Shown in pieces: positions 12,220 to 59,242 of a stretch of 64,000 nucleotides of DNA; position 1 is the first letter of the stretch, and each line of letters starts with the position of its first letter. Where the stretch lies: assembly GCA_001986395.2 (NCBI GenBank), contig MQVO02000034.1, forward strand, positions 62,001 through 126,000, read 5' to 3'. The notes below the pieces were generated by a model. It was not told the origin of the DNA. It worked only from the letters and a program-made list of their open reading frames with translations, and did no database searches. Position numbers and translations under genes: made by a program. The stretch is from Irpex lacteus. Lineage: Eukaryota; Basidiomycota; Agaricomycetes; Polyporales; Irpicaceae.

Positions 12220-13863
12220 ATGGCTGCAACGCCTTGGACAGACATACCGTTGTCTGAGGAGACAACGTATTGGAGATCTTTGTCAGTGATCAATATTCAG
12301 TCTAAATATGCGGGTTCATATTCTTATAAGACTTACGTTCTAGAGTCACGGGAAGCTTCGTAGAAGTAGCAGCTACAGGTATGTAAGGTAAAATGGATAC
12401 TTTCGTCTCTCGCTGACATCGACTCCCAGCGCTGTTCTTCTATGAATACTTCCAGATTTTACCGGACGAAGTCAAATACATATGGAAGCTCAAGAAATCT
12501 GTCGCGTCCTACCTGTTTCTGGTCAACCGATACGCTGTATTGTGCATCCGAGGGTTTAGACTGGTACAGATGGTCCCATGGGTGGGAAGAAACGCCCACA
12601 CCGCGGATATTGTCAGTGCCTCTCTGTAGTAATGGTTCCGTAACGTATCACTCACAGACCCATCTAGATGTATGAAGATCCTTTCCTAAGTTTGGGTATA
12701 TAGTTTTGACGCCCCTGGTCTTTGACAGCTGTACCGTTACATGGCGAATAGGAGACACAGGCACCATTACCATGTACTTGGTCCTCGCACGTAAGAAGAT
12801 CTCATCATGATGCCTTTCCATCTTTGCCTGAATTCTCTTCTGTTAGTATTTGCATCCCTCAGAACGTACGCAATATGGGAAAAAGAACCGGTTTGTGCTT
12901 GCGGGTGTTCTCATACTGGGTTTGATATATCCTTGTGGGTTTACGGTGCGTCCATAGTCGCAGATGTTCCGCACAGTAGCTGATCCCGCGCCCGTAATGT
13001 AGTATTCTATCACTACACGCTCCTACCGAGCGGCTCCTCCTCCGTTTACCGGTTGCGACTACAATACATCGTTGAGTCTGTCTATCAAGCTGGATCCTAA
13101 TATGATCTAGTACGTATTCAAGACTGCTTTGCTGCTTGCCTCCGTGGTTTTAACCCTCTGCCTTCCTTCAGCTGTAGGTCACGTCAGTCGCCAGTCTCGT
13201 CGTAGAATCTGACATGAATACGTAACACAGCAATGTTAGGTATAATATGCAGCATGGCCTTCGAAGCCTCTGTCGTGGTTCTCACGTGGGCAAAGACCGT
13301 AACTCTTCTCAGACGGAGAAGACAGATCGATGGACGGGTTAGTCAAGGCATGGGATACATCCTGCTGAGAGACGGTATGTAGTGCGCATATCAACATGAT
13401 CAGTACTAAGTAATGCTGATTTTGCTGTTATTTCAATGAAGGCACTATTCATTTTGGAACCCTCTTCATCCTGAATGCTGTCGGTCTGATAACCTTCGTC
13501 TCAACAGTAAGCATTTTCTACCCCTCGCACAATGCCCCTCCATGATTGACGACGCATCGTTAGCCATTCGACTTCATATCGCCCATGACAGACACCATGA
13601 TATCTATCCTGATTTCTCGTCTCATACTCAACCTCAAGAAAGACTTCCTCAGGACATGTAACCGACGTGGCATCACTAACGATTCAGGCGCGGCTACCGT
13701 TCATGGAACCATGACTAATGCAAGCGGTGATGGTCGAAGGACGGGAGGCGCTTTTGAGGACGTCTCGAATATGACCTTGCAATTTGCTCACAACTTAGAT
13801 GAGGATGGGTACGGTGAAGATGAAGCGGCATGGGATAATGGTACAGTACTGCCTTCGAGTTGA
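12220..13863 (+). pseudogene. DUF6533-family seven-span membrane protein, copy 1 (frameshifted)
   Basis: DUF6533 proteins are multi-span membrane proteins of unknown function, expanded in agaricomycetes. The start at 12220 (MAATPWTDIPLSEETTYWRS) matches copy 2. Exons give VTGSFVEVAATALFFYEYFQ, then SYLFLVNRYAVLCIRGFRLV, a 20-residue core CTVTWRIGDTGTITMYLVLA, LRTYAIW, a loop with PPPFTGC, and the last span SILISRLILNL before a variable acidic tail. Two 2-nt microexons are required: AT at 12668-12669 and CT at 13172-13173. An extra A in the run 12880-12884 (TGGGAAAAAG against TGGGAAAAG in copy 2) shifts the frame just after LRTYAIWE, although all later exons still match copy 2. This is a recent pseudogene or a homopolymer error. 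It forms a tandem pair with copy 2. Confidence 0.8.
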
Positions 13864-14958
13864 GCAAATAGTCCAGTCGTGGCAATGCAAGACGCTCAAT
13901 AAATAATACTGTCTCACGCAATGTTTGTACGGAGTTGCCGTATGTATCAACAATCGTTCCTTCAAGCCTCTGCCTTGGATCTATTCGTGAGTGTTTTGAA
14001 TCACGTCACGACGGAAAGGCTGATGAACACGAGTTGGGGCAAATAGTTCAACGCCGCGTTATCACGCCCACATGCCACCTCAACTGCTTGTGGAAACTAT
14101 CATACCCTTCAACGGCCCGGGCTGGGCTTGCTTCTGCATACTTGAGTTCCCTCAAGTATACTCAATGTGGTGACATTTCATGACAGGCTTGGTCTTACAG
14201 CTTTATGTGTCGACGTGCGACCTGCCAGTGTGAGCAGAGATCCGAAGACATCCAACCCGTGTTACCACTGCAGGCGCCCTGGTCTCTCTATATCGTTTCA
14301 CCATGACGCTTGGAGCTTGAAGCTTGATGCGCGATCGATCACAACACGCTGGTCACCGTTGTGAGTAAGATGTTTTGAACTCCGGTCATATCTTTCTCGA
14401 GTTGTTGAAGATGGGTGTCTACTGTTCCTAGCTGTGTACGTACTTCAACATCTGTTGGTTCGATGAACACTGATAAGAACAGATCCGTCACTACCACATC
14501 TTCGTGATTGCTGATTGCAGCACCAAGCTGTTCGTCGATTCTCAGGCGCGAATAATTTACGCTGCATCTGGCGACCTTGTAATACATACCGTCTCTGGTA
14601 TAAAACACCGTAAGCAATCCAATTTCTATCGCGACATGGTCTAGTAAGCTATCAGTAGCCTTACGTTCGTCTGGAATAGCTTCCTTTAGTAACCGGAACA
14701 GCATCGCCTGTGGAACTTCGACTTGAACCGCATCACATGATCAAAGCATACTTGAAAGTTGGCGAGGATGGGGATCGATGTCCCGAAGATTGCGCAAACC
14801 TACGTCGCATCTTGACATGCGGGTAATGTCAGTACATTGTTATTACTTGATGTGCATCCAAAGGTAAGTGGCTGTGGGCTCATGAATCTATAAGTACTAC
14901 GCAATAACGGCTATCGATAGTTTGAACTTGCTCTCTCATAGTAGATTTTATCACGAAC
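13864..14958. other. spacer between DUF6533 copies 1 and 2, with an unassigned ORF
   Basis: This 1.1-kb spacer contains an ATG-started 121-codon frame on the minus strand (14704 to 14339, MLFRLLKEAIPDERKATDSL...). It has no recognised domain and could be chance. The last 100 bp should hold the promoter of copy 2. Confidence 0.35.
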
Positions 14959-16606
14959 ATGGCCACAATGTCTTGGGAAGATGTGCCCTTGTCTGAAGAG
15001 CCAACCTATTGGAGATCATTGTCAGTATCCAACGCCAAAAACTTCACTGACATCCAGATTCCAGCGCCATCTGATTACTCATTAAACATTTCTTCTAGGA
15101 TCGTAGGAAGCGTTGCAGAGGTAGCAGCTACAGGTACGAAGATCGGGGTACTTATATTCGTCTCCTACTGATAATTATCCTCTATGCAGCTCTATTCTTC
15201 TATGAGTATTTACAGATGATACCGAACGAGGTCGAGTACATATGGAAGCACAACAAATCCACCGCATCCTATTTATTTCTCGTCAACAGATATGCCATGC
15301 TTTGTGTCCGAGGTTTTCGGCTGGTACAGATGGTCTCATGGGAAGGAAGAGACGAACTCACTGCAAGTGAAGTAGGTTGTCTATGTAGACCCTCAGCCTC
15401 AGGCAACTGATCAATCTGAACTTATGATTGAGATGTATGAAGACTTTCCTCATTCATGGATTGAATGTCAAATTGATAACATCATGCAGATGCATTATCG
15501 CGTGGAGGGTTGGAGACACTTGCACGATTATGGTGTACTTAGTAGTTGCTCGTAAGTCCATCCTACACGTGCATTCCTCCGGCAATCTAAGTTGTTTCAT
15601 TTATTTCATGCAGTCTTCGCATCACTCAGAACATATGCATTATGGGAAAAGAACCGCTATGTGCTTGTAGTTGTCCTAATGCTGGGTCTCATTTACCCAG
15701 GAGGCTTTACTGTACGTATCTACCACTGGTTCCTGCATACCCATCAGCTCCTCTGATCATTACATGATTGTGTATAGTATTCTGTAACTACGCGAACCTA
15801 CCGAGCCGCTCCGCCTCCGTATACTGGTTGTGACTACAACACTTCGCTTGACCTCTCTATCAAGTTGGATCCAAACATGATATTGTACGTACAAGGGCAT
15901 GGGTGATACGTGAGATTTGCTGACCTTCGTCCATAGCTGTAGGTTCATTCTCTCGTTGAGGCTCGCCTGGTAGAATCTGATCTGAATATGTACACAAGCG
16001 ATGCTTGGTATAACCTGCAGCATGATTTTTGAAGCTACGGTCGCCGTTTTGACATGGGCTAAGACTATTCGCTTACTTAGGCGAAGACGACAAATGGTCA
16101 ACGAAGTTAAACAAGGCATTGGTTATATTCTTTGGAGAGATGGTATGTGCATTGTCTACACGCAACCTGTCGTGTAAGATCAGCTCTGATGTGCTTATTG
16201 TAGGCACCATGCATTTCATTGCTCTTTTTGTCTTGAACGCCGTCGGGTTGATAACGTTTGTCTCGACGGTACCTCTCTTTCCTCTCGCATATCCACCCAG
16301 TCTAATTGCGGTGCTCTCTTCTAGCCGTTTGACTTCATCTTGCCGATCACTGACACAATCATATCCATCCTCATTTCTCGTCTGATTCTCAACCTTCGAG
16401 AAGACTTCCTCAGTACATGTAATCGTCGTGCTGATCCGGGTATGGATTCCTCGGACTTGAACAACGTTGAGTGGACCATGCCGGGTACTGATAGTTATGC
16501 ATCAAGGATGGGAGGGGCTATGGATGACATGTCAAATGTAACGACTGGCATGCAATTTGCTCTTGACTCAGGTGCGCTTGAGGAGGGTGGACCTGAAGGG
16601 GTTTAA
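14959..16606 (+). CDS. DUF6533-family seven-span membrane protein, copy 2
   Basis: This intact tandem partner of copy 1 starts MATMSWEDVPLSEEPTYWRS. Hydrophobic segments in order are the VGSVAEVAATALFFYEYLQ span, the SYLFLVNRYAMLCVRGFRLV span, the 20-residue CIIAWRVGDTCTIMVYLVVA running into LFASLRTYALW, YVLVVVLMLGLIYPGGFT, the loop APPPYTGCDYN, FSMLGITCSMIFEATVAVLT, MHFIALFVLNAVGLITF and DTIISILISRLILNL. That makes about seven spans. The frame closes only with two 2-nt microexons, AT (15433-15434) and CT (15937-15938). The introns around the second are 52 and 60 nt. The cytosolic-looking tail is rich in Gly, Met and Asp. Function is unknown. The LRTYALW motif after the third span recalls the position of the DRY motif in GPCRs, but that is only an analogy. 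Confidence 0.85.
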
Positions 16607-17417
16607 GAAGTGCCTTGGGAGACGATCGACAGTCGCATACCTACAATACGAGAACGTTGATGCAGCATTCTAGTGGCGAACATGGAAGACATTACTCTAA
16701 CCACAATTAATCGAAGTAGGCAGCGATGTATATTCTTATTTATAGGCCCGTTATTTCATTCGCGTATATTCAGAGCTTGATCAGACCTACTACTTATGTC
16801 TCCGTACGGAACTTGAATGCAAATGAGAACGTACCAACACCCATAACAAAAATTGTGCAACGTGAATCGAAACTGTTACATAAAATACCTCGTGCTTTTG
16901 AATCGATTATTCCTCCACAATGTCGACCAGCACATCACCGCACACGCCGCGATCCCGACCCAGGCGGCTTGCTCGAACTCCTCGGCAACCATTCCAAGAA
17001 GATCCCTCCAAATTTTTTCGGACAAGTAATCAAAGCTATAGAGGTTCCATTTGTCGTGTAAGAAATATGTGAGTTGCTGAAGGTCCAGGGGCCCAGCGAC
17101 AACGTAGAGATGCACTTCTACTCGAGCCGACTTTATCGTCCATAAGTGTCTGTACCTCCCTTCTTCTGCGTAATAATGGTCTACTCACAAAACAGCAGTG
17201 TCGATTGCGTCATCTTCAAGTCACTACGCTGACAAGCAAGTATGCTTAACATGCCACTGGCCGATGACGACGACAGCTCAAAGTAAGTGTAGATGTAAAA
17301 TTCGACAATTAAGCCCTCCAACCGCAAGTAAAGTTGAGCAATAACTCATCAAATGCATCATATAGTATTTGTGACTGGCTAGCGACCCAACGCTGTAGAT
17401 CGCCGTCTCCAGATTCC
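16607..17417. other. intergenic; one unassigned minus-strand frame
   Basis: A minus-strand frame around 17100-16876 (LSEKIWRDLLGMVAEEFEQA...) has natural-looking composition, but it starts only at GTG and has no known domain. It could be an exon of an unrecognised gene. Nothing else is supported. The right end carries the 9-bp copy (17409-17417) that flanks the transposon. Confidence 0.3.
17409..17417. repeat. left target-site duplication CCAGATTCC
   Basis: A 9-bp direct repeat immediately left of the inverted-repeat element. An identical copy sits at 18118-18126 immediately right of it. Confidence 0.65.
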
Positions 17418-18117
17418 AAAAGGTTCCGGACCTCGAGACTCTACGCCGAAACCGGCCTGTAGGGCCGACTCTACGCTCCCGTAGAGTCGCCTCCACGCTC
17501 TATATTGCCTAAAATGACAGGCATCTGTGACACTCCTGTCACGCTGCCGCCGACTTACCTCCTCGTATGACGATATAACGCGCCCATACTGCTCTTATAC
17601 TAGCTCTGTACTGTAGGGATATGATTATATATGTTTATTATAAATTCTTCACGAAGAATTTGGGCTCATCAGATGTTGAATTAGGCTCATCCGACATTCC
17701 AATCACTGGTCTCGTTCGACAGCCGTCGGCACTCGTAGAGGCCCAGCTTCTCACAGGTAGTGGTGGCTTTGTCGTTCAATACTAGTCTTGTGTACGCTAT
17801 GCCCGTCGCCTTTGCTATTGTCAGCTTACTTACTCGCCGACTTGATGTTGAGTACGGCGGCGTGACCGGCGTGAGGCTGTCACACGTCTCGTACAGTCAA
17901 GGGCCAGTGCTCTCCCGCCAGCAGATAACAGTGCCAACTATCAAAATAATGTATTTGCAGGTACAATCTGTGCTAAGCATTGCAGTCCCGGTATATGGTA
18001 TTCCAACTTCACTTCGTTAACGCGTTTTCGCGCGGTAGCACATGTGACATGTGACATAGAGCCGACTCTACGTAGAGTCGGCTCCACGCGTAGAGTCTCG
18101 AGAATCGGAACGTCCTC
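17418..18117. mobile_element. 700-bp non-autonomous DNA transposon (MITE-like) with terminal inverted repeats
   Basis: The two ends are inverted copies of each other. The left end (17418-17495) contains CTCGAGACTCTACGC followed by GCCGACTCTACG...TAGAGTCG. The right end (about 18055-18117) read in reverse gives the same order. The right end includes a perfect 22-bp palindrome at 18061-18082. The element is bordered by the 9-bp direct repeat CCAGATTCC at 17409-17417 and 18118-18126, the expected footprint of insertion. An 8-9 bp duplication suits hAT-like elements. The interior holds no transposase frame, so mobility would need an enzyme supplied elsewhere. Confidence 0.75.
18061..18082. repeat. 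perfect 22-bp palindrome in the transposon end
   Basis: The 22 bases beginning GCCGACTCTAC read identically on both strands. A related, imperfect hairpin (GACTCTACG...CGTAGAGTC) lies at 17467-17488 in the opposite end. Such subterminal hairpins are typical of transposase-binding ends. Confidence 0.8.
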
Positions 18118-18126
18118 CCAGATTCC

Positions 18127-18694
18127 GGCTGGCGTAGTTACGTTTAGACTTCCTCATTAGGCAACTTTTGGGCGCTCACTGGCTTGCAACCCTTCACCCT
18201 CGTCTGTAGCTGTAGACGTACACAGGGTGTACGCTGGTAGATTTCTTTTGTAGTCATATTTTGTTCAGGGACCATTTGGTGTGTTACGAACAAGTATTGC
18301 AATTTGGACGTATAGCCTAAGGAGTAAGTGAGATGCATCTTGCGAACGTGACGAAGCGGATGCATCACGAAATAGGCGTAGAGAAGAATACTTTCAGGTA
18401 TATTCCGCAGAGCTCAGCTGGGCGACGGTGCTCATTATGTCCTCAAGGAATTTCAGGCTCAGCTTGCAAAAGCATAATGCTCAGAATACTCGCCCACGCT
18501 GCTATTAATTTCAATCCAGCCTAGTCATGATACAAGTAGAATACGCATACACTATACTGAATTACAATTACACTATGATTACAGTCCACGAGAGCTTTTC
18601 CGATGCATCAACACCGCACATTATACACCGCAGGTACACATACAACTGACCCAGTCATCCACACGACACCACACGACACACCTCAAGCTCACTC
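18127..18694. other. intergenic, no gene seen
   Basis: No supported frame. The right part is presumably the 3' UTR of the leftward MFS transporter gene. Confidence 0.4.
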
Positions 18695-22247: not shown

Positions 22248-23892
22248 CTAGATGCGACGTGTACCATAGCGAACAGTTGAGATGTCTGAGAGGGGAACGG
22301 AGGAGGCTTCGTTATTCTTTTTAGAAGCGTAGTTCTTTCGTAAATCAAGAATAAATCTTGAAATGATGATTGAAGTGAGGCTAGTCGGCAGTTCAGCACA
22401 TTATAGATACTAACAAATGAGGCCACTTACGTTTGGATAAGGTCGGAGAATACGAATCCAATTGACTGTGAAACACGTATTGTTAGATGTATTCCTAGAT
22501 ATAATCAAAGAACGAACTGGAATGAACCCTACTAGACTAATGGCGTTCATAAGCAACAATGCGCTACGGTTTAGTCAGCGATAGTATTCAAAGAGAGAAA
22601 ACGCGGCTGTCTCACACAAACTGTATAGTTCCTACCATCAAGTAAGCTATATGAGGACAAAACGCCATTGCCAGTATGTGCGAGTTGCTCACCGTCAAGA
22701 AATAGAACGAGGGATATACTCTTCACGCTACTTGTATCGTTTCTCTGCCTGCGATGGATAGTCGGAATTGTCTTCAGCCATGTGAGAAGCGCAGTGGCGC
22801 CCTCGAACAATATTATGCTCCCAGTACCAAGCATATCTGGAGCAGCCAATATCATTCAGCTTGCTAATCTTCGGTTATGAGTGGCATTGATGTCTGTGAC
22901 ATACGACTGAGTAGCATTATGATTATTAGTAGACGATATCGCGTAGATGAATATTAGACATACATACAATAGACTATCCGAGCCGTATCTTGTGGTAATA
23001 CTCGGCGGCAAAGTGCTGTAATATTCGCAACCGGGGATTGGAGAAGACGAAGCACGGAACACTAGACGGGTAGCATAGTACTGTGCTGTTTCATCAGAAA
23101 CGTGGAATTAATGTTGAACCAAGTGTGCTTACCGCATAGCCACAAGGGTAAAGCATGCCAAGTAAGAGCACACAGCAGAGCACACGGAGATCCTTGTTCC
23201 ATAGAGCATATGTTCGAAAGGCAGCAAAGACTAAAAATGTGGGCATCGAAGATTATCCTGAATCAGAATCGTTATGACAGCGAGGAGCACATCCACGTAC
23301 CCGCGAACGTCATGTACACTATAAATGAGCATGCATTTGCTAGCTTGAGGATGATACGACAACTGGAGTAGAGGAGAAGGCGGTGACTAGTAGATAAGTC
23401 ATTGACAAGCGACATAAATGTACAGTACTACTCAACGTCTGGGAGAATACGTGAGTGATTAAAGCGAAGTGGCAGTTCAAGAAAACCTACTTCATCTGCT
23501 GTATCGGCATTCCCACGAGTCCATGACACCAATTGTGCCATGTCAAGAAGATTATAGCACAATGTCCCATAGCGATTGGCTATAAATAGAAACGACGCCA
23601 TAGAGAGCTCATGCTTCCATATGTATTTGACTTCCGAGGGAAGGGTTAAAAGGTAATCATACAGATAGCATGCTGTGGAAGCGTGTTTAGCCGTATACGT
23701 GAGTCAGGAAGGATGAAGGTTGGAAGGTGCAGCGCACCCGTTGGTACTAATACGAAATATTTGGAGGTATATCTAGACAGTCAAGGGAGTTAGAAGTGGC
23801 ATTGAGGTCGTATTTTCACTCCTCACTCACTGGTTTTGCCATTCCGTCGAGGATGGTGTGGGCGAGACACTACTAGGGGGTACCACTAGCAT
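22248..23892 (-). CDS. DUF6533-family seven-span membrane protein, copy 3
   Basis: Starts at 23892 (MLVVPPSSVSPTPSSTEWQN). Exon 2 gives YTSKYFVLVPTA, joined to CYLYDYLLTLPSEVKYIWKH and SFLFIANRYGTLCYNLLDMA. The 20-residue core is CRIILKLANACSFIVYMTFA. Then come FRTYALWNK, the loop SSPIPGCEYYS, and FHMLGTGSIILFE as fifth span. The end is TSIIISRFILDLRKNYAS plus a short tail to TAG 22248-22250. Microexons are required at 23437-23438 (AC, coding strand) and 22905-22906 (TC). All joins keep frame. The C-tail is short, about 30 residues, and lacks the acidic box of other copies. Confidence 0.8.
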
Positions 23893-25105: not shown

Positions 25106-26755
25106 CTAGACACCAGAGCAGGCCTGATGCCAGTCTCTGACCTGAGCACTTCCGCGAAAACGGGATAATTCTTGAGAGACGTGGTGGAGACTCGATGGCG
25201 CAGATATGTCCCGGATATGAAGCGAGTGATCTTGATCGTGCTCGCTCCTCGTAACGTAGTCTCTCCTCAGATCAAGGATGAACCGCGATAGGAGTATTGA
25301 GGTGATACTATTTCGTCACACATGGGCGGAGAGTAAGGAAAATAATTCGTTACAGGTATACACAAACAACTCACGCTTCTATGAGAGACGTGACGATGCC
25401 CTTGTCGGATACTTGAAAATCTGGTGTTTGTGAATCACGATCAACTCGACCAGTCGCAATCATCGAGATGAACAGCGGCAGACCGCTGAGATTAATGACA
25501 AGAATAGCCCTAAATTATGCTTATCAGACGATGCTCCTGAATACGGACTGATTATGAAACTTACAGGAAATTGAATGTACCTAAACGTCGATGAAAAAGT
25601 ATGCTTAGCCTGAGTACCAGGACACATGCTTGAATCGTACCGTTGCGGAATACTACATAAGTAAGGTTCTTCCCGGAATTCATGCATAGGTCCTCCATTT
25701 GACGTACGGCGGGAAACGTCCTCATCCATGTCAGCGTAACCACGATAAACTCGAATAGAATGTTGGTTCCAAGTCCGAGTAAGCCTATAGAACAAAGTCT
25801 AGCTTAGAGAACGTCTAGCTAGATGACAACGTACAGCTGCTCGAGGATTTAGCTGACTTTTGAGAAATAATTCCAACTATGGCGACGCACAATAGCTGAT
25901 CTGACCCCATTCGCGGAGTCAGTCCATCAGGCAAAGTACTGAACGTGCTACATCCAGGAACGGGCGATGGGAATGGACGGTAGTTTTGTCTTGCAAGACG
26001 ATACTGCCAACACTGCATGGGCACGACAGACTGCAAATGATTGAGATTTTACTTACAATATCACCGAAGGGAAACAATAAGCCAAGCCCAAGTACGCAAA
26101 AGAATACCACCCTACTTTGATCGTAGATCTCGTAGGTACGAATTGCGGCAAATACTGAGATGTGCCTGTCATCAGCGTGGCGCCGTTCGCGTACGCACAA
26201 CAACTCACAGGCCAGCACGGAATGCATAATAACCATGCATATATCATTGAGTCGAGCAATGGCCGAACATCTATAAGGATTTAGGCATCAGTTGCAATCC
26301 GTTAGATCATCAGAGTTTGCGACTTAACCCCTAAGCAAGCATAAATTAGACGGAGGCGGCCTCTCTGTTTGAATCGAGGAGACGTACAAGAAGTGCAGCT
26401 ATGCCATTGTTGCTCCCTAAGGAAGCCAGCTGAACCATTCCGGATGCGCTATAAAAGACGAAAGCATATCGGTTTACCAGATATAAGAATGCCGCGAGAG
26501 ACATCTGGCGACGCCAAATGAGGTCTATTTCATCCGGAAGAGTCAAGAAGTACTCGTAGATACACAACGCTGTAAAACACTGAACATGAGCTAAGTACGA
26601 TAGAACAACTAAGAATAAACCTTCTCACCGGCTGTTGCTACGTGCGCATGGATGACTATGTGTCTAAAGAGAGCAACTCGGTGAGTTTTTGCAAACCATT
26701 CAATTAAGTAGACGAGTTGAACGTACTGTATGCTCCAGAAAGATGATATATCCAT
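25106..26755 (-). CDS. DUF6533-family seven-span membrane protein, copy 4
   Basis: Starts at 26755 with MDISSFWSIQ, then exon 2 HIVIHAHVATA and CIYEYFLTLPDEIDLIWRRQ. The NRY exon reads AAFLYLVNRYAFVFYSASGM. The conserved 20-residue core is CSAIARLNDICMVIMHSVLA, followed by FAAIRTYEIYDQ, the loop PSPVPGCSTFS and FCLLGLGTNILFE. The last span is TSILLSRFILDLRRDY, with a tail ending at TAG 25106-25108. The microexons are GG at 26329-26330 and CT at 25835-25836 (coding strand). The intron between the first microexon and the core exon is 58 nt. The motif after span 3 is RTYEIY instead of RTYALW. Confidence 0.8.
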
Positions 26756-27555: not shown

Positions 27556-29298
27556 CTAGTCGTGGGAAGGCCTGTCTGGTTTGCTGGCAAAAGTCCTTTC
27601 ATCATGCTCCACACCGTCGTGACCCTCCTTCTCTGAAAGCGTCGCTGAGACGACGTTATCAAGCTCTGGTATGTTACCGTCAACCTCACTAGCAAACCGG
27701 ATACTTGTCAAATCAAAGATGTAAAAGGAAGCGCTCTGACCACTTGAAGGTCCTCTTCCCCTGGCCGCGTAGGCTTCCCTGAGATCGAGTATAAATCTCG
27801 ATACAAGTATCGAGGTGAGTCTAGAAATAGAGACCACGAATGAGTTTGCGAACACAATAAATATGGGAAACGAACGTGTCACTGAGTGATGTAGATGCAG
27901 CATAGAACAAAGGCTGCGGTATGTAGATTATTCGGGTCGAACTAAGATCGAGAAGGATCGAGACACGTACTCTCCAGACGAACCCTAACAGTCCGATGGT
28001 GTTCATCAAGAGTAAGGCGCTAAGATACTTGTCAGTGATGCTGATAGATATTCGCCAGAGATTCCGTGCATTTACTCACGTGAAGTGTAGTGTACCTGAC
28101 AGCAAGGCTTGTTAGATCAGCAATGTGCGAGCTGTTATGTCGACAAAGCCTCTTACCGTCGTAGCATATCACAAGAGATAGGCTTGGTGCGTTGCTCGTG
28201 GTGCTCATCAGCTTCGCTTGTCGAGTAAGGGAGACAGTTCGCATCCATGTCAGTGCAATAGTAAGGCACTCAAAGACCATGCTACTGCCGATCGACAGTG
28301 CAACTGTTCGAAGCGCCTTAAGCACATGCGGTTAATGACTAGGAAGGTATCAAAAGCATACATCTGGAGTGGATTGCTGATCAATACAGAATGTATGATG
28401 CGAATGTGAATGACTCACAATGTTACATTGTCACCGAACTTGGCAGTCTGGATTTGCGGCAGCGTCTGGTAGTATTCGCAGGTGGCGCTTGAGTGACGAG
28501 CAGCATTGAAACTGCGTCGAATTGAAACATACTGGACGAACATTGAACATGAATGCCCTTTTACACCGTGAATAGCACTTACTACATAGCTTACGGGGTA
28601 GACTAGCCCCAAACCCAGAACAGAAATGAATATCCTTCGATTCTTGTTCCATAAAGCGTAAGTCCGTAGTGCCGCAAATACTAGGAGCGTAAAGGCGGTC
28701 AATTCACTGTACGAACCAGACTCGAATATTTCCTCACCTGACAACACTAGATATTCCAGTATTGCACAGACATCGCCCAACCGAAACAGAGCAATAAGTC
28801 TTCCGACATAAAGTAATCAGCTCGTGGCGCCCATAGAGATACATGAACTCAACGTCTGAATCACCTGTCAGTCTAAATGTGCACCGGCCCCTGTTTAAAT
28901 CAAGCACGTACTTCTAGGGATAAATACTGCTCACGAGCAGCCCAAGATGTCGATTGTAAAAGACCCAGGGCGTTGTTGCACAAGGTAGCATACCGATTCA
29001 TCAAGAAGAGTAGGGATGTCAGCGACACTTCTCGCCCCCATATGCAACGTAGTTCTTGGGAAAGTGTCGCCAGATAGTCGCAAAAGAAGAGCGCTGCAAA
29101 ACGAACGTCAACAGACCCTTGTCGAACGCACGAAAATTATGAATCTCACTTGTTGCAGCTATTTGAAAGTAGTTGGAGGCGTATCTGCAGATTGAATCAG
29201 TGTCACGCTTACGAAACATAGTACGAAAGTGAATGCAACTTGTTTTCCCAGTACACAAAGTAAGCCGCACAGTCTGCGGCACCAGGAGTCGATAGCAT
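27556..29298 (-). CDS. DUF6533-family seven-span membrane protein, copy 5
   Basis: Starts at 29298 with MLSTPGAADCAAYFVYWENK. Exon 2 ends NYFQIAATT and joins LFFCDYLATLSQELRCIWGR and TSLLFLMNRYATLCNNALGL. The 20-residue core LIALFRLGDVCAILEYLVLS has Leu instead of the usual leading Cys. Then come FAALRTYALWNKNRR, a longer loop with TCEYYQTL, LFALSIGSSMVFECLTIALT and the last span TSILVSRFILDLREAYAA. A long Asp/Glu-rich tail ends at 27556. Microexons are AC at 28854-28855 and AT at 28362-28363 (coding strand). For the second, the frame closes when the following acceptor is the AACAG directly before TTGCACTG. Confidence 0.8.
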
Positions 29299-36196: not shown

Positions 36197-37997
36197 CTAT
36201 ACAAGCTGTGCCTTGTACATGGTCCTCCCTTTCAACGGCACGTCCGGTTGATAGCCCAGATCGCCCTTACCGAGTAAAGAGACAGCTGTAGTCCCTGTTA
36301 TCTCAGAGTCAGAGCTATGAGGTAGGCTATGCCCATCGTCTCCATCTTCGAAGTCGCCTTCCACATGCAGCGAACCTCCGAGAGGCCCTATGAACGAGCT
36401 TGATGGTTGTGAAGCGAAGCGAAGGTCGGTAAACTTCGAAGAGTGGAATGAATCCGTACTTTCCAGGCCTGCAGTCGTTTTATCACCTCGAAGGTCCAAA
36501 ATGAAACGTGATATAAGAATTGAGGTCAACCTGTGTAACGTGTCAATGATAGGTTAAGAGAGTAAAATATTAGTGACGAACGTATCAATCATGGCAGGCA
36601 TGTTGTTGAAAGCCTATGCAAGCGCCTGGGTCAGAGAAGGAAGAGGCAAGTAGAAATCTGACGAACCTCAACACGAATTGAGAGCATGCTTAGCACATTC
36701 AGGCACAGCAGCGTGCTACAAATAGATGTTAGCAGTGTCACTGTTTTCAGATCGCGGTGCTTACACGAAATACGTAGTTCCTATAGAAAGCGTAGGTTAG
36801 TCAAATTAGAGGGAATCTGCCAATCCTTACGAAGACATACCATCACGAAGTATGAGAAAGGATAGTCCCTGGCGCGGCCCATGGGGGTTGGCTGATCTTA
36901 GTGCCTTCTGAATGTCGACGGTTTTCGCCCATGTAAGCGCGATGACAACGCTCTCGAAAAGAATACTAAAGATAGTGCCGAAAATAACTGTTCACGCATG
37001 ACGCGGTCATGAACAACGATCGAGGTTGAGTAATTTAGTACGTACAACTACGGCAGATGGTCAATTGGTGTGTAAAGGGTAAACTAAGCAGAGGAAGGTA
37101 CGTACAAGAATTCATCGCTATTGATATCGCGGAAGGCCAAATTGGAATGTTGTCCGCAGCCTGTAAGCGGAGGAGGGAAGGCCGAGAAAACGAGTGTTGT
37201 CACATAGTACTATATCGGTGGGTCGGATTACCGCAGAATAATGCGTGATATAAATATTTCACTTACAGTGTTCACGATGGGATATATCAACCCGAGTGCC
37301 AATACACAAGCAAAAACCTTTGAGTCCCGATTCCAAATGGCGTACATGCGGATTGCAGCGAAGACTACGCAAGTAGGTGTTTGAGTTAGTGAGCCATGCT
37401 GCAGGTTAGAAGCACCGCACTCACCTGCAACGACCAGATACATAGTAATCGTACAACCTTCGCTGAACCGCCACACAACGTTGCAGCTATATGGCGTTTG
37501 TCGTCAATATTGAGACTTGTCTCAAGGAAGATGCACTCAACATCTGTAGATAGCCGTTTGAATCCATTTATCGAGACAGTGATAAATTAGTACTCACCCT
37601 GTCTGCCGTGTGTTCGAATTGGCCCTGCCATGACACCGCCTGAATCATCCTGAACCCCCTATTGCACATGACTACATATCGATTGAGCAGGAATAGGATC
37701 GTTGCCGTGGACGTCTTGCGTGACCATATGCATTTGATCTCTCGTGGCAGAGTCAAGAAGTACTCATAGATGAAGAGGGCTTTACGCATCTATTCAGTAA
37801 ATGGTATCATATACTTATTCAAGGCACATACCGGTCGCCGCAACTTCTAAGGTGATAGCAATGTCCCTACGCGACCAAATTAGCCTACATGGTGAAATAC
37901 ACCGCCTTTACGACACCACCTACACCGACTCCCAATACGCGATGAAATCCAGGAATGCGTTAGAGTCATCCAGAGGGCCAGCCTGCGACGTCGACAT
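36197..37997 (-). CDS. DUF6533-family seven-span membrane protein, copy 6
   Basis: Starts at 37997 with MSTSQAGPLDDSNAFLDFIA then YWESV. Exon 2 is DIAITLEVAATA, joined to LFIYEYFLTLPREIKCIWSR and ATILFLLNRYVVMCNRGFRM. The core exon is CNVVWRFSEGCTITMYLVVA. Then come FAAIRMYAIWNRDSK, FPPPLTGCGQHS, FFIFGTIFSILFE, and the last span TSILISRFILDLRG. The tail carries GPLGGSLHVEGDFED, a motif also found in copies 8 and 9. Microexons are AT at 37542-37543 and TT at 37046-37047 (coding strand). The gene is convergent with the CNH fragment, with only 185 bp between stops. Confidence 0.82.
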
Positions 37998-45154: not shown

Positions 45155-45239
45155 CGTTGTCGGTGGTGGAAGACGGGCGACCTGCAGACGGAGCGGTGAG
45201 GCGATCAAGACGCGGTCACGTGCGGGTTTCTCACGTGCG

Positions 45240-45577
45240 ATGGGCAACGCGATCAGTAGGGCGCTCCCAAGCTGTCCTTCGAGCAACCATGACCACTGCC
45301 AGAACGACCAATGCTCTGTAAGTGTCGGTCCTCTATCGTGGCCATAAATACTGACACGGAATAGTTGCCTGCTGTCCTGATACTTGCAGAGAATTTGAAG
45401 GTGAAGACGACTGTATCATACCCCGCAAATGCTTACAGTACTTTTGTCGTCAACGGAGAACTTGTGCCAGAGAACAGCGGCAATATTAGTGCGCTACTCG
45501 TGCTCGCGACTTTGACCATCCACGCTCGTTACAAGTTGCGAGATGAACTGGCTTTGCTGCTTGAAAAGCACTACTAG
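45240..45577 (+). CDS. hypothetical 96-aa protein divergent from DAM1
   Basis: Exon 1 (45240-45317, MGNAISRALPSCPSSNHDHC...) joins exon 2 (45365-45577) across a 47-nt intron in phase 0. Exon 2 reads LPAVLILAENLKVKTTVSYP and STFVVNGELVPENSGNISAL, ending DELALLLEKHY. The first exon is His/Cys-rich (DHCQNDQC). The second looks like a small folded domain. I do not recognise the family. Support is the clean splice join and the divergent position beside a conserved gene. More exons after 45577 cannot be excluded. Confidence 0.4.
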
Positions 45578-48260: not shown

Positions 48261-48667
48261 CTGATGTATTCTATTGTGCGTAAAAATGTATTGTTACTAT
48301 CTACCAGTAACTTGACACTCTTTGTACTGTCCCACAGCTTATGTACACTACAAATGATGGTTATTTGCATGATTTGATGCAAACAATTTCAGCCACGAGC
48401 AACTGTGTTCAACTTCGCATAGTGCCTTAGCCGGGCCCAACCCTCAGATACGGATGCATCGTGTATGGCCGGTGCGTGGCCAAACATGGTCGGTGAATCC
48501 CAAACACGCTGGACGGCCAGCAATTGCCGATGCTCTTCTTTCTATGACCCTACATGCACAAGTTTTGGCGTACATGGAATGGCAATCGACACTCTCGGAT
48601 AAGAGAGACGATCGTAGACCCCTGACTTACATTTAACCTTCAAGTTGATCCTGCAACGTTTTCACCA
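48261..48667. other. short intergenic region
   Basis: No gene seen. Confidence 0.4.
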
Positions 48668-49660: not shown

Positions 49661-49940
49661 CGATGGATCGAGTTCCATTATTTCGTACGATGGGACCAAA
49701 TCACTGTACGATTCTAGCTAACCGTGCCAAGAAGGGCACGATTATCTGTCACGGCTCCGTAATCATGATCCAGGTCGTTTTCATATGAGGTTATGAGCTT
49801 GCAAATGGTGGTGAATCCGATAGATGGGAAGCGTTATACATCGTGAGACCATATGTTATATTCGAGTGCCCTAGGTACCGTTACAGTTAGTCAATGTTCT
49901 GTGAGGACTCGGTACTAAACGGATCGCTTACATTATAATG

Positions 49941-51563: not shown

Positions 51564-52467
51564 CACGCGATACTTAACTCGTAGCCTTCGAAATATCTGT
51601 TGCGTTGATACTCCACCTCTATGGCCGAGAGTCTCGTTCCCAGAGGTAAGGGCTGCCCACTGTTGGCAAACATGGGGGCCAGAGTGTGCGAAAGACTGGT
51701 GGCAATAAGTATTGAGACCGGTCACCGAGATAGCAGGACCCCGAAAACCTGGTTACGACAACAATCACGTGTGCTCTATCCACGCTTAAGTTCAAGCGTT
51801 CGCGCCAGTTCAACTTGCCCTCTTGATTCTTGCCTTCTTCAGGTCATGTCGTGGCTGAGAAATTGAATCATGCGACGAGTCTGCAGATCATGTCTCAGGC
51901 CACTGGAACTAGCCGTGTAAGATATCGCTTGCTAAGTACTGTTTTTCTCATTCTCTTTATCATGACTTGTGTGCGAAGCATGGAGGCTGACATGCTTCCG
52001 AGTCCTCGATTCCTCATCATCGCTCAAGTAGTTCCCATCTCGCTGATGATTTGACAGATTTAATGGCATATCGGTGACGAACTGTCTGTAGGTCTCCGCA
52101 CCTCATCACTGGTCTCCTACTAAGACAGCCTGCTGCACGTTATAGAACGTTGTAATCTATGATCCGCTTCACGAAGGCCCAAGCTCAGTTCGGTATTCGG
52201 CGTGTTGTATACAGCCGTAACCGTTCACAAGATAACAGCTACGCGGGATACTGGGTATCAGGTTTTCGGTGGCCTGCTCTGGCCGATCACTCATCATCTA
52301 CAGCCTGTGAAAGGAACCGCGGGTAAGATGGTTTCGATGACGGAAAGAACAGATCCATGATTGATGTTTTTCATCCATGAGGTAAAGTATCCTCCACACT
52401 CCCTATATGCAGAGCAATACAGCTGCTTGCAACTGTCGTATCGCCCACTGGCTGCTGAGCGGCCAAG
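51564..52467. other. intergenic; promoter regions of two divergent genes
   Basis: No gene supported. It separates the leftward CoA-transferase-like gene from rightward DUF6533 copy 7. Confidence 0.4.
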
Positions 52468-54237
52468 ATGTCTGTTTCGCTGGACGATTTTCAAGACTTC
52501 GTATCTTACTGGGAAGCGGTGTAAGCAATTCGTCACGCGTATATTTTCTAGCTGACCCCACATTGCAGCAACGTCATTGTGGTGGTTGAAGTTGCAAGCA
52601 CCGGTATGTCATATGTATCGTCCATAATCGCCGGGCGATGCTAAAGAACTGCTCTCCAGCTCTGTTCCTATATGAATACGCCCTGACGTTGCAGCGGGAG
52701 ATAGATTGCATTTGGAGACGGCGGTTTTCTACGGCAACGGTTCTCTTTCTTATCAACCGGTACGCGTTCCTGACGAACCGCGGTCTTCGGATGGTGCAAG
52801 TAGTATCGTGGCAAGGCTACTTCGAAGTCACAGCAAACAAGGTATGTTGCTAGCTTATAGCCTGTGCCAAATATTTGTTTATATGTGATTTTAGATGTTG
52901 AGTACCGTGTTTCACTGGTAAGCGGCTGCGCGATCAACCTAACGTCCGTTTTCCAGCTGCAATGTTGCATGGCGCTTCAGTGATGCGTGTTCCATTCTGG
53001 TTTACACCATCGTTGCAGGTACTGCTTATTCTCAGCATATCAGCTCGCAGAAGTTTGACCCATTTTTTCAAAGTATTCGCCGCCATCCGTATGTTTGCTA
53101 TATGGGGTGGGGACCGCAAGATGCTTGTCGCTGTGTTGGCGCTTGGCTTAATACGGCCACTGATCATCACCGTACGCCTCAATTTGGAAGAGTCCTGCTC
53201 GGCTAGCTCATTGTTTCTTCTCTAGTACTACACATCGACGCTCGAATTCCTAGCCTTCCCACCACCGATGGTTGGATGCGGGCAACATTCTGACCTGGTC
53301 ATCCAGGGTATGGACACTACGGCAGTCTTGTAAGCAGACCATATTACATCAAACCGTAAACTGATGCTAATATGTGTGGCATAGCGGTATGTTTGCAATT
53401 GCTAGCTCCCATGGCCCAACATACATCTGATCTCAACCGGGCAGATGTCTGCGGTATCATCGCTCACGCGGCCTTTGAGAGCGTCGTCATTGTGCTCACT
53501 TATATAAGGATCACACATATCCGTCAATCTCTCCGCAGCATTGGTCAAGAATCGGACGGAAGATTACGCCTACTATGGCGTCATGGTACGAATCAGTTTA
53601 AAACCCCTCCTCTCTTCAATTTAATAAATAATTCTGAACAGGGATTATACACTTCATGTAAGCATTAGCTGGAAACGCTGCGTCCCTCTGCCCATCTCGC
53701 TAACCTGCCCGCAAGCTCGTTGATGTTCTTGGACGTCCTAGGCTTGATGGGAAAGTCAAATCAGTTTGAGGTGAGCTATTGTAAATACGTGACAAATAAT
53801 CTTATGATGTTGACGCGAGACTTGCAGATGCTGAACGATATCCCCAGCATAACAGACACGTTTGTCTCTCACATCTGAAACAAAACGTCCTCTGATCTAA
53901 ATTACTCTTTAGATTGATGTCCATCCTCGTATCCAGGTTCATTCTAGCCTTGCGGAACGATCACAAGACTGAGGGCAAAGCTTACACCGACCGCCCACTG
54001 TATCTGTCGCATACTACGAGCGTTTGCTTCGCCACTCCGCGGTCAAGCCGACTCATAGGAAATCTTGGCGCTTCCCTTCGACTCTGCTGCGACGAAGATG
54101 AAGACGGGGAATGTAGTGAAAGGGGCCAAGAGAATATGTCTGAAGACGATTCTTTACTTCATCGGATATCGGTTGCGTCGCTGGTAGACGGAAACCTGCA
54201 CACTCCAAAGGGACAGTTCTCCATATTCCCTGTATAG
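52468..54237 (+). CDS. DUF6533-family seven-span membrane protein, copy 7
   Basis: Starts MSVSLDDFQDFVSYWEAV, close to copy 6. Exon 2 is NVIVVVEVASTA, then LFLYEYALTLQREIDCIWRR and ATVLFLINRYAFLTNRGLRM. The core exon starts CNVAWRFSDACSILV. It is followed by FAAIRMFAIWGGDRK, FPPPMVGCGQHS, FDVCGIIAHAAFESVVIVLT, a LFLDVLGLMGK-type span and MSILVSRFILALRND. The tail is long and acidic (GNLGASLRLCCDEDEDGEC), ending at 54237. Microexons are AT at 52895-52896 and CG at 53385-53386. It pairs best with copy 6 across 15 kb and opposite strands, so one was moved or inverted. Confidence 0.82.
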
Positions 54238-55205
54238 GTTTGTATGCAATGGATTGCACATTTAGGCAACATGTGCGCAGAAATCGATGCTAGAAGGCTC
54301 GAACAGTTCAACAGCACAACAGCGTCCGATAGACGAATACACCGCCTCCTCGCCCTCTCATAGTCATCGCTTGTCTATCTATGACCGCCTGGTCGAGCGT
54401 ATCAGTAAGGCGATACAGAGTCGGTGTCCAGGGTGAGTAGGTTTGGAGTTTAATTTTCTCAGCACTTCTAGCCCGGCTGTATATTTTCCCACCAATATCG
54501 CGCTTGTATGTGGACCAATAGAAACGATGCGTACCGTTAATGTGAGTCTTACCCCACATCTTGACCTTCATCTGACGACGAGGAGTTTGTTTGGGGCAGT
54601 TCCCGTTGTTCCGGTCTACAGGTATCGCCGGAGAAGTTGGATGGAGAAGCGCGTTATACTACTCGTATTAAGAAACCGGTAACTTCGATATCCTCACCGA
54701 GTTGAACGGATCTGGTAGCCAATGCTACGAGCTTTGGTACTCTACCGTATGTGACATCTTGGATGGCGCTCATTGCTAGAGGCCTTTGTTTCACACAGCT
54801 CACGATGTTAATATTCACTGGTTCTTACTAGTCATGCAGACAGAACACAGAAGCTTCCGCGCTCAGTGCACTGTGCTAGCATTGACTGGCGCACGAGCCT
54901 GAGCTCAGCACGGCAATACGCATAATCCAGAACCCCGGGCTATCACGTTGCACGCCCATTGCAATGATTTGGGCGCCGACCATTGGCGAAGAACAAATGT
55001 TCGTCATCATCCAAGGCAGTATAGACTATATGATCAAGCTTAGGGCGCAAAAGTAAACGCTTTCCTGGACGCTGGGCCGCTTTTGCATATAAGACACGCA
55101 CTCGACACGCACTCGATGCTCGCTGTTCTGTCTCTGTTCTCTACCATCGCGTCACTAAGGTCTGTTTGCTAGTGGACAAAGTAGTCTGTGACCTCCGTGC
55201 CGGTG
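54238..55205. other. upstream region of copy 8
   Basis: No gene seen. The part from about 54910 is duplicated upstream of copy 9 (from about 57370), including matched strings such as GGACGC and CATATAA/TATATAA near the presumed core promoter. Confidence 0.5.
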
Positions 55206-56828
55206 ATGTGGATGATAATGTAGGCCCTGGTTATCCGCTCTCGAGTGAGTGCATACTCATACTAACGGGTTAGAGATCGCACTGGTATTGGGACAGAGTG
55301 TACAAATACAGGTGAGTACTGGATGTACGCTACTTTTGCATGTTTCTGAAACTTCGCCTATTTTAGCTCTCCTCGTTTACGATTATTTCTTGACTCTACC
55401 TCAAGAAGTCGAACACATATGGCGGCGGAGAACGTCTATGATCACGATTCTCTTCTTCATCAATCGTTACTCCATTATCCTCATCCGAGGGTTTAGTGTC
55501 GTACAACTTGTGTCTTTGGGCGGTTCATCCGAGTCGGAATTTATGGCCAATAGGGTGGGTCAACGAGTCAAGCCACTCTTGGTACATCGTCGAGCTTACT
55601 GATGTACAATATCAGATGTCGGTATTTCATTGTAACAGAAACCAAGTAGATCCTGACCTCAATGTGCCATAGATGTACTGTTCTATCGAGGTTCATCGAG
55701 GCGTTCTTGATCGTATTTGACATCACAGTCTTGTGTAAGTCTACCAGAAGTCTCCCGTCAACTCTACTGCACATGTCAGCGGTCCACCTTCCTTGTCATA
55801 GTAATTTCTGCGCTCCGCCTATGCGCAGTTTCCAACGGAAATCTCAAGCTCCTAATCGGTGTTCTATTACTCGGACTGGCTTACCCCATCGTCAACACGG
55901 TCAGCTTCTCCATGACTTTAATCACGGTTTTGACACTCATAAATGTGTACAGTACTACTTCACGACGCTCAAGTTCTACGCCCTTCCCTCCCCGCACACT
56001 GGATGCGGCCAACGTAGTACGTTGGAGCTCCACAAGATAAACGTTACCGAGTCCCTGTATGTCCACTGCTTTAGGGGCTGGTGATGTCTCTTGCTGATGG
56101 ACTCGTATAGGTGTACGTCTTGTGTTCTTTCCCTCTGGCCTCTGAAAGCTCTGATTATGGACGTATGCCAGCTATATTTAACACTATCGTCTGCATGCTA
56201 TTCGAGGGTATCGTGCTCGCCGTTACTTGGATAAGGACGTTCTGTACACTACGAGTCTTGCGAAGGACAGAACCGGCGTATTCCGGAGGAGTTTCCTATC
56301 TCATGTTCCGCGACGGTAAAGTGCTGTCTCTTCCAGAGTATAGATAATATTCAGCTTACATATTATGTGCTTCAGGCTCTGTATACTTTGTGTGAGCCAT
56401 TTTGGATTTAAGTCAAAGCTAAACCGCAATTTTCATTCATCGCTGTTTCTTTAGGTCATTACTGCTCCTCAACATATTGAGCTTGTTATCGATATTCAGC
56501 GCGGTCAGTCACGCCCACTACTTACGCCAGCACATACGTCTGCTTAAAGTGGCATCTTATAGGCGTTCAGTGAAGTGTCAAAGCTCATCGATACGTACGC
56601 TTTCGCGCCACCACTAGATATTGCAGTGATGGGTATGCTGACCAGCCAGACAGGTTTATCTCGATTCTCATGTCGCGACTCATCCTTAACCTGCGCGATG
56701 GCAAGCCGTTCTATCCTCACGAATCCAGTACATCTTTTTCAGAGATCCGATTCGAGGCTCCTACCACATCGGAAAGGCTCGCAGGGAATATCGGTGCCAC
56801 GGTGCATGTCGAAGGCGATGAGGAGTAG
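55206..56828 (+). CDS. DUF6533-family seven-span membrane protein, copy 8
   Basis: A very short first exon (MWMII) joins DRTGIGTECTNTA at 55274, then LLVYDYFLTLPQEVEHIWRR and ITILFFINRYSIILIRGFSV. The core is CTVLSRFIEAFLIVFDITVL. The motif after span 3 is degenerate (LRLCAVSNGN), followed by LPSPHTGCGQRS, LSIFNTIVCMLFEGIVLAVT and a final SILMSRLILNLRDGK. The tail closes GNIGATVHVEGDEE at TAG 56826-56828. Microexons are AT at 55616-55617 and GT at 56111-56112. The first intron (55220-55273) is 54 nt. Its closest relative is copy 9, next door. Confidence 0.8.
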
Positions 56829-57635
56829 GAGTAAGTAATCTGGCGTTCGTATATGCTGAATTATACAGTACTTTGGCTCTCAATAGCCGTCGTGTACCAC
56901 ACCCAGCACTCGATCAGTGAGCACAGGCTTCATTGGTAGTGTATTTATCAAGGTGACGATGGGTATCACCATGAACGTAACTTTACACAACCCCACTCCA
57001 TGATGATCATATTCAGCTATTTATCTCGACTGATCTTGCGCCACCTACCACGTACTTGTATATGAAAAAATCAGAATGGTATCTGCCGTTGAGGTGAGTC
57101 TCATATCTCTTCGCCCTCATCTGATGACAAGGGGCTCAGTTGGTGATTTCAGGTATCACCAGAGAAATGGCATGATTGATAGGCTTCAGTAGCTAACGTG
57201 CAAGAGAAGCGCACATCAGGAAACTTGGGCGACTTCGACACCATTACCAAGTAGAACGTACCTGTACGAGAATTGCGGTTAGCATTCGTTTCATACAGAT
57301 CACAATGTGCATTGACTTGTACTAACTTTGTGCCAGTGCCCGCATTGTCCAACCCCCGAACTCAGCACAGTAACATACATAATCCATGACTTGGTGCTTT
57401 CCTGTGAAGTTACGTCGCGGTTGCACGTCCATTGCCATGATCGTGGCGCAAATATTTGTTGTTCCAAAGCGCACATGTAAGGTCCGTGATCAAGTTCAAG
57501 GAGCAAAGGCAAACGTTGTCTTGGACGCCGAAACTGATGCGTATATAACACGCTCTCGAAGCGCATCGCATGTTCTCATTGAACTGACCTTGTGGACTAG
57601 GTCATATCTGACTAAAGTACTTTCCAACTTCGACG
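56829..57635. other. spacer between copies 8 and 9, partly duplicated promoter
   Basis: From about 57370 the sequence resembles the 54910-55130 region, showing that the duplication unit includes the promoter. A TATATAA box is visible at about 57541-57547. Confidence 0.5.
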
Positions 57636-59242
57636 ATGCAGATGACTACGTACGCATCATTTATCTATCACTAAGGGAAGCCACGCTCAACGTGGGATCA
57701 CAGAGACAGAACCCTCAGTACAGAGTGTGCAAGTATTGGTGAGTATTGGCCAAGCACAATGCATATGTCTAATCAATCACAGCCCTCTTGCTTTATGAGT
57801 ATACCTTGACTCTGTCGCAAGAGATTGAACACGTATGGCAGCGAAGAACATCCATGGCGACGATACTCTTCTTCGTCAACCGTTACTCCCTCGTGTTCAT
57901 GCAAGGATTTAGTATCGCAAGATTCGTTTCATGGGATAGTGTCACAGGATACACTATTTCGAACGATACGGTGAGTTGGATGGCGCAGGGTTCGACTGGT
58001 AGTTGACATCGTTGACGTGTACAGACGTTTGTAGCCAGACTTCCAGGATACGCATATAGGCTCTAACCGCCCTGTATTCCAGGTGCACCATCCTCTCCAG
58101 GTTCGTCGAAGCGTTCTGGCTCGCATTGTATATATCACTTGCACGTAAGTTCTCTCTGCCATCTCACGTCAAATTGCATCAACGCTCCTTTTTCCACAGT
58201 ACTCTCGGCACTGCGTCTATACGCAATCTCAAATATGAACCTGAAGTTCCTACTCGGCGATTTATTCCTGGGTTCTGTATACCCTGTCGTCTATGTTGTA
58301 AGATCTCCTTATATCCTTGGCATGCTCGCTGGAGCTCATTGTGTACGCGTGCATACAGTACTATTTCACGACGCTCAGGTTCTACGCTCTGCCATCTCCG
58401 CACATGGGATGTGGACAACGTAGCACGTTGGAAATCCACAATGCGGACATTACCAAGTCTCTGTATGTCCCTTTCAAGGGCTATCAATGCCACCTTTCGC
58501 TGACAGACTCGTACAGGTGTACGTCTTACGTTCCTACCCTCTTGCTTAAAGTCCCAAAGTTCTGATTACACGCCAGCTATATTCAGTACTATCCTCAGCA
58601 TGCTATTCGAATGTATCGTGCTCGCCGTAACTTGGAGAAGGACGTTCGGTATACTAAGAGTCCTGCGAAGGACATACCCGACATATTCTAGAGGAATTTC
58701 CTACCTTATGCTCCGTGACGGTAAATTATCGCTCCTTTATCAATAAGAGAACTATCGTGGCTCACATTTTACTTCTTTCAGGCTCTGTATACTTTTTGTG
58801 AGCCAGATTTCAAGCTTTACCACTAGTGCTACTTTCATCGCTCTTTCCCTAGGGCGTTGTTGCTCCTCAACGTATTGAGCATGCTGTCAATCTTCAGCTT
58901 AGTCAGTCCTGTCTCCTACGCAACCTCATGCGTCCGCCTACTTAATGTGGCATTTGTAGACGTTCATTCAAGTACCACCGCTCATAGATACGTACGTTTC
59001 CATATCGTCGCTAGTAGCCCAGTCTCAACATTACGCCCGCTGACGAGCCAAACAGATTGAGCTCGATTCTGATCTCGCGACTCATCCTTAACCTCCGCGA
59101 CGGAAAGTCGTCCGATTCACACGATTCCAGTCCACAGCTTTCAGAGATTCAATTGCAATTCGAGGCTCCTGCGACATCAGATAGGCTCGTAGGAAATATG
59201 GGTGGAACAGTACATGTTGAAGGCGATGAGGAATGGGAATAA
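57636..59242 (+). CDS. DUF6533-family seven-span membrane protein, copy 9
   Basis: The first exon is MQMT plus a split codon. It joins DRTLSTECASIA at 57704 and then LLLYEYTLTLSQEIEHVWQR and ATILFFVNRYSLVFMQGFSI. The core exon is CTILSRFVEAFWLALYISLA, followed by LSALRLYAISNMNLK, LPSPHMGCGQRS, LSIFSTILSMLFECIVLAVT and a last span with LISRLILNLRDGKSS. The tail ends GNMGGTVHVEGDEEWE at 59242. Microexons are AC at 58025-58026 and GT at 58517-58518. It is a tandem duplicate of copy 8, offset by about 2.4 kb, and both genes look intact. Confidence 0.8.

Follow-up and report, generated by a model that had tools for sequence, protein, structure and literature searches.

Can an exon of only two nucleotides (nt) be a regular part of a gene, and can one gene carry two of them? 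This question is raised by a stretch of 64,000 nt of Irpex lacteus (assembly GCA_001986395.2, contig MQVO02000034.1, positions 62,001 to 126,000 of the forward strand), which is called the window here and in which a profile search found exactly nine matches of the DUF6533 family (PF20151), termed copies 1 to 9 (W1-W9). According to the initial annotation, every copy needs two extra bases at two fixed places, site A between the NRY exon and the core exon, and site B upstream of the FE motif. Our analysis indicates, with a probability of about 0.92, that DUF6533 genes of this type contain two constitutive 2-nt exons (microexons), near the starts of helices 3 (site A) and 5 (site B). The basis at the DNA level is position, phase, spacing, conservation among paralogues, and the demand of the reading frame.

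Dinucleotides of the nine window copies

As seen in Table 1, all 18 dinucleotides of the initial annotation were read directly from the DNA at their coordinates and on their strands, with AG before and GT after each. Both dinucleotides restore the frame in all nine copies, each lying between two ordinary introns. In every copy, the NRY exon that precedes site A has a phase-0 end at a GTRNGT-like donor, and the core exon of 62 nt consists of 1 spare base, 20 codons, and 1 further base. Two more bases are therefore needed between the two exons, and the core has the expected 20 residues in every copy. The codon formed by the dinucleotide and the spare base gives Ile, Ile, Thr, Gly, Thr, Ile, Ile, Ile, and Thr in copies 1 to 9, followed at the first core position by Cys in eight copies and by Leu in copy 5. 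Site B follows an exon with a phase-2 end, and the exon after it opens with two bases of a codon, so that two bases are again missing. The segment that starts with the codon which the microexon completes and runs to the FE motif is 13 residues long in each of the nine copies, as had been proposed. The lengths given for the flanking introns (52-60 nt) needed correction; they hold for 29 of 36 introns, and the full range of the 36 is 50-74 nt. Site A of copy 3 has another AG-NN-GT candidate, positioned 8 nt downstream of the listed pair.

A spliced-alignment program was written for this analysis, in which introns are GT-AG and tiny exons are neither favoured nor penalised. With the reading of copy 7 as query (53.2 bits against the PF20151 model when spliced, cut-off 24.1), the listed pair was recovered at site A in 8 of 9 copies, another path being preferred in copy 5, and at site B in 7 of 9, the exceptions being copies 4 and 5; both counts include copy 7, whose own recovery is circular. 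When the best template from another gene was used, all nine listed site-B pairs were recovered.

Table 1. Microexons, flanking introns, and core exons of the nine DUF6533 copies (positions in the window)
Copy	Site	Microexon	Position	Strand	Flanking introns	Core exon
1	A	AT	12668..12669	+	12612-12667, 12670-12728	12729-12790
1	B	CT	13172..13173	+	13110-13171, 13174-13230	
2	A	AT	15433..15434	+	15372-15432, 15435-15489	15490-15551
2	B	CT	15937..15938	+	15885-15936, 15939-15998	
3	A	AC	23437..23438	-	23439-23490, 23363-23436	23301-23362
3	B	TC	22905..22906	-	22907-22967, 22837-22904	
4	A	GG	26329..26330	-	26331-26387, 26271-26328	26209-26270
4	B	CT	25835..25836	-	25837-25890, 25785-25834	
5	A	AC	28854..28855	-	28856-28911, 28800-28853	28738-28799 (Leu-led)
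5	B	AT	28362..28363	-	28364-28418, 28304-28361	
6	A	AT	37542..37543	-	37544-37597, 37487-37541	37425-37486
6	B	TT	37046..37047	-	37048-37105, 36988-37045	
7	A	AT	52895..52896	+	52842-52894, 52897-52956	52957-53018
7	B	CG	53385..53386	+	53330-53384, 53387-53444	
8	A	AT	55616..55617	+	55555-55615, 55618-55672	55673-55734
8	B	GT	56111..56112	+	56057-56110, 56113-56171	
9	A	AC	58025..58026	+	57971-58024, 58027-58082	58083-58144
9	B	GT	58517..58518	+	58463-58516, 58519-58576	

Both sites across the genome

The whole genome comprises 317 contigs with 44.3 Mb, and of 240 candidates in it, at least 150 were scored as DUF6533 matches. The feature had been described for the nine window genes, where it stands; its extent was understated, since paralogues far outside the window show the pattern too. 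For site A, 69 loci were tested, the nine window copies and 60 others. The anchors were placed without use of the microexon. The first was the top-scoring donor, in any phase, after the NRY- or TRY-type codons, and the second was a Cys-led open exon of 62 nt ended by GT or GC. Both anchors were found in 59 of the 69 loci, and the best donor was in phase 0 in 56 of these 59. The usable set comprises 54 loci, eight of them window copies.

AG-N2-GT, with both introns at least 44 nt long, was present in 53 of the 54 loci, and in all 54 when L053, with a GC donor (AG-AG-GCAAGT), is counted. In 100 shuffles, the same pattern appeared in 5.6 loci on average and in 13 at most. The count fell to 32 of 54 when a consensus-like donor was demanded, because the donor behind the microexon is often weak; the shuffled mean was then 0.9 and the maximum 5. 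Other gaps from 1 to 12 nt gave 2-21 loci without this requirement and 0-1 with it. Gaps of 0, 6, and 7 exceeded the shuffles (22, 21, and 18 loci), and nearly all of these matches reuse the AG or the donor of the microexon itself (22/22, 17/21, and 16/18; 55/61 overall), either where NN is AG and gives AGAGGT or where a second GT lies inside the donor. Three loci have two candidates. The dinucleotides of the 54 loci are AG (23), AT (16), AC (8), GG (3), and TA, GC, GA, and TT (one each), where TA is the second candidate of copy 3, whose first-listed pair is AC. The resulting codon is mostly Ser, Ile, or Thr, and the Ser group mainly represents the distant TRY-type subfamily and its relatives.

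At site B, a template alignment placed a 2-nt exon in 47 of the 53 loci that scored at least 150 (70 run). Since the residues at issue are already present in most templates, the site was retested with half templates that end short of it on either side, and 36 of the 53 loci passed the filters. The frame demanded two extra bases (modulo 3) in 34 of these 36. AG-N2-GT with a consensus-like donor was found in all 36, compared with a mean of 0.4 and a maximum of 3 in 60 shuffles; the next commonest gaps, 5 and 6, occurred in four loci each. The two 2-nt exons per gene that were proposed initially are the only model found with canonical introns under which, at one fixed place throughout the set, the frame and the protein length are preserved.

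Several loci that appeared exceptional were inspected individually. L027, L062, L063, and L067, taken for irregular, have the common structure. L039 seemed to be fused at site A by intron loss; its DNA contains AG-AG-GT and the apparent Ser-Cys arose by chance. L015 seemed to skip the site-A microexon and was rejected as such, since it reads as a loss of 1 nt in a run of C, where the related protein P0009 reads PPWNSS. This locus (C18:1183979-1187595) seems to be 1 nt short in the C run before the site-A donor, whereas P0009, a published relative, continues in frame at this point; the locus is either misassembled or a broken copy. No intron-loss copy, which would be a natural complementary DNA (cDNA), was found among the loci read.

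Some observations on the family can be added. The 150 or more DUF6533 matches amount to a very large expansion of this family of receptor-like seven-helix proteins, and many of them are clustered on contigs C18, C173, and C67. In TRY-type genes (e.g., L024, L034, and L070), a 141-nt exon is followed by short exons of 16, 46, and 44 nt, and these lengths are conserved across many paralogues. Several copies on the contig of the window have near-identical partners (W4/L038, W6/L045, W7/L036, and W8/L016), and the pair W9/L014 is more diverged. This pairing concerns contigs C67 and C173 and probably reflects a second haplotype. In 10 pairs of alleles or close paralogues, 0 of 20 microexon bases differed, compared with about 8% of the bases of the flanking introns; 20 bases are too small a number to be taken as a sign of selection.

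Published protein models and alternative readings

Protein searches returned DUF6533 proteins of I. lacteus, I. rosettiformis, Trametes, Sparassis, and others. From those returned, 20 I. lacteus proteins were aligned, and eight reach at least 75% of their self score on the loci; P0002, P0006, P0008, and P0020, among others, reach 90-96% on loci of this genome, which fits a genome of I. lacteus or one very close to it. For P0008 (BC629DRAFT_1463743) on L070, all solutions with one or two introns were enumerated, and one canonical solution was left at each site, with the 2-nt exons AG (site A) and AT (site B). At the junction of site B, the peptides of P0006, P0017, and P0020 also match the microexon model. 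At the site-A residue, for which the microexon predicts Ser, both P0006 and P0020 have Val. For P0006 on L073, the same gene as L024, this Val requires non-canonical intron ends (GA...AG or AG...GC); the annotation held the frame by adding two other bases. The core exon is wholly or nearly wholly lost in P0001 and P0003. P0002 has lost the NRY segment, with the remainder of the NRY exon out of frame, and in P0009 the upstream intron is read through.

Two further sequences, P0039 (jgi, contig of 1,720 nt, 399 amino acids) and P0082 (lgn, contig of 1,791 nt, 357 amino acids), are uninterrupted open reading frames and may represent spliced cDNA. Counted back from FSxLR, their cores are preceded by Arg and Ser, as AG plus one base would give. 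As the length of the NRY segment is not constant and these sequences were read without their genes, the two are no more than compatible with the microexon model, and confidence was set slightly lower on that account; for the same reason of length, proteins of other species cannot by themselves reveal a microexon. No relatives were found in viral contigs by scans with two alignments.

A number of points weigh against two 2-nt exons per gene. The loci compared are genomic DNA of one species, from which inclusion in messenger RNA (mRNA) is inferred. The 60 loci outside the window were the best-scoring of 141 and not a random sample. At site A, 15 of 69 loci were unusable: ten were unanchored (W5, L010, L017, L023, L025, L029, L030, L039, L048, and L059), W5 being copy 5, which lacks the core Cys, and five were set aside, L015, L031, and L037 for phase 2 and L057 and L065 for an interval outside 90-170 nt. 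At site B, 17 of 53 loci were unusable in the retest. The template alignment gave no 2-nt exon in six loci (L046, L040, L032, L044, L019, and L065), and two of the 47 positive calls (L026 and L039) have neighbouring exons of odd length; L056, a close relative of L046, has the microexon. The microexon residue is present in only one of eight published models at site A (P0008) and in four at site B (P0006, P0008, P0017, and P0020). In the remaining models, the core exon is skipped or misframed, an intron is read through, or another residue is placed there. Finally, some canonical single intron that keeps the frame exists at site A in 49 of 54 loci, and in 21 of 54 it combines a good donor with a YAG acceptor.

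The last point leads to the first alternative, that each site is one intron of about 110-120 nt with another donor or acceptor that keeps the frame, AG-NN-GT being incidental. An intron of this kind, 138 nt long with its acceptor inside the downstream exon, was annotated for P0002 at site B. Such solutions are not shared between genes, however, as the commonest occurs in 8 of 54 loci. Most of them add or remove residues; those that preserve the protein length occur in 7 loci, with donors that score below zero. In copies 4 and 7, no single canonical intron that would hold the frame was found at site A. Moreover, single introns leave the AG-NN-GT of 53 of 54 loci at site A and of 36 of 36 at site B unexplained. 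This alternative is considered very improbable.

Slightly poorer still are the prospects of a long intron whose non-canonical end (GT...AC or similar) lies two bases short of the final AG, by which the mRNA of genes with NN = AG would be unchanged. For P0008 on L070, a GT...AC intron of 123 nt does give the same peptide at site A, as does an AT...AG intron of 108 nt at site B. This reading fits only the 23 of 54 site-A loci in which NN is AG, whereas the residue would change in the other 31, and AG-AG-GT or AG-AG-GC is left unexplained in all 23.

The double introns could also be stwintrons or recursive (zero-nt) splice sites that are wholly removed. The sequential removal of two adjacent fungal introns is stwintron-like, and NN = AG creates AG|GT as at recursive sites; a gap of 0 was counted in 22 of the 54 loci. 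Complete removal, however, gives the wrong frame, since a phase-0 donor (56 of 59 loci) would meet a core that opens with one spare base, and at site B two more bases are needed in 34 of 36. In a stwintron, the whole intervening sequence is removed and the exons are joined exactly; here two bases must stay at both sites. A recursive site (AG|GT) would leave no exon, but two bases are needed, and NN differs from AG in 31 of 54 loci. Complete removal can hardly be credited at all. Decay of the genes into pseudogenes, with the frame mismatch as damage, has an equally negligible chance, because the same two positions with the same frame correction recur in dozens of diverged paralogues and a published relative (P0008) gives a confident seven-helix model, even if at least one copy looks damaged (L015, about 1 nt missing upstream of site A).

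Splicing, protein context, and known systems

The 2-nt exons can be placed in the protein through the structure predicted by AlphaFold2 for the published relative P0008, which is not a window copy. The model shows bundled long helices in line with the expected seven, with block values of the predicted local distance difference test of 83-97 over residues 1-250 and a disordered tail. The site-A residue is 69, in the helix of residues 67-99, and the junction codon of site B is 150, in the helix of residues 145-183; by this model of a seven-helix protein, helix 3 begins near site A and helix 5 near site B. A fold search with P0008 gave weak similarity to class A G protein-coupled receptors (best E 1.7e-3, none at or below 0.001).

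Site-A introns are 49-89 nt long and site-B introns 47-70 nt, most of them 50-70 nt, lengths that suit removal in two rounds by intron definition. The site-A donor behind the microexon is weak, its mean score being 0.71, whereas the donor of the upstream intron averages 3.15 and that of the next intron 2.98; both site-B donors are strong (3.24 and 2.96). The weak donor is GTTGAG in 9 of 54 loci. It often resembles GT[T]RAGT with an extra T, reading GTTGAGT in window copies 3, 5, 6, and 7 and GTTAAGT in copy 4. A donor of this type might pair with U1 with one base bulged. Of the 54 loci, 17 have a branch-point-like CTRAY in the upstream intron and 22 in the downstream one, a share similar to that of the ordinary next intron (19 of 52), versus 13% of shuffled introns.

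The initial annotation had expected that the spliceosome should struggle with a 2-nt exon. This expectation is weakened, since intron definition is believed to be the way in which short introns of fungi are recognised, and under it two successive ordinary splicing events would suffice. One short flanking intron would likely be paired and removed first by intron definition, fusing the two bases to a normal exon, and the second intron would then be removed. At site A, the upstream intron may go first, as the weak donor behind the microexon would fit this order. Since loss of either microexon shifts the frame, inclusion should be constitutive.

As far as the accessible parts of the cited papers go, the closest counterparts are the constitutive 1-nt microexons of plant APC11 and VPS55, for which RNA evidence exists (PMC4674806, PMC8831610). 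Both systems have exons too short for exon definition, between canonical introns, that are frame-critical, conserved, and usually missed by annotation. The DUF6533 exons differ in being 2 nt long, two per gene, fungal, present in tens of paralogues, and known from genomic sequence only; intronless relatives are reported for the plant genes, and none was found among the DUF6533 loci read. Ascomycete stwintrons, to judge from the portions available, likewise place two U2-type introns at one position and require consecutive removal (PMC9024468, PMC5639578), but they are nested and wholly removed, whereas the DUF6533 sites must retain two bases. Fungal microexons are described in Xlr2 of Trichoderma virens (PMC11121469) and in P450 genes of Phanerochaete chrysosporium (PMC1184071). 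In the available text, the shortest exon of the P450 genes is 6 base pairs and the Xlr2 microexon is in or out according to glucose, in contrast to the 2-nt, frame-critical exons of DUF6533. In the microexon literature on basidiomycetes, no 2-nt exon was encountered in the accessible parts of these two papers. The claim that such exons are rarely described agrees with a phrase search of the open-licence literature, which found no description, although other reports may exist; a match to "2 nt exon" was a deletion table with no exon. What appears to be new from the sequence is the pairing of 2-nt exons in a big fungal family, constitutive 1-nt exons being already known in plants.

In Coprinopsis cinerea, SNB1 (Snowball), a DUF6533 protein with seven helices, is needed for fruiting-body patterning; it shares the Pfam family and the seven predicted transmembrane helices with the genes described here, according to the part of the report available (PMC10949477). 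A much broader view is that both 2-nt exons are ancestral to the DUF6533 family of mushroom-forming fungi, that hundreds of genes per genome depend on them, and that the paired sites, with the weak donor behind A, act as a splicing gate that switches sets of receptors on or off in development. This is speculative and considered unlikely. Dozens of paralogues, each with a pair of putative 2-nt exons, offer natural replicates for studying how the spliceosome handles exons that cannot be recognised as such and in which order the flanking introns are removed. The pairs also offer a reason why published models break at sites A and B, in a family that includes the fruiting-body gene SNB1.

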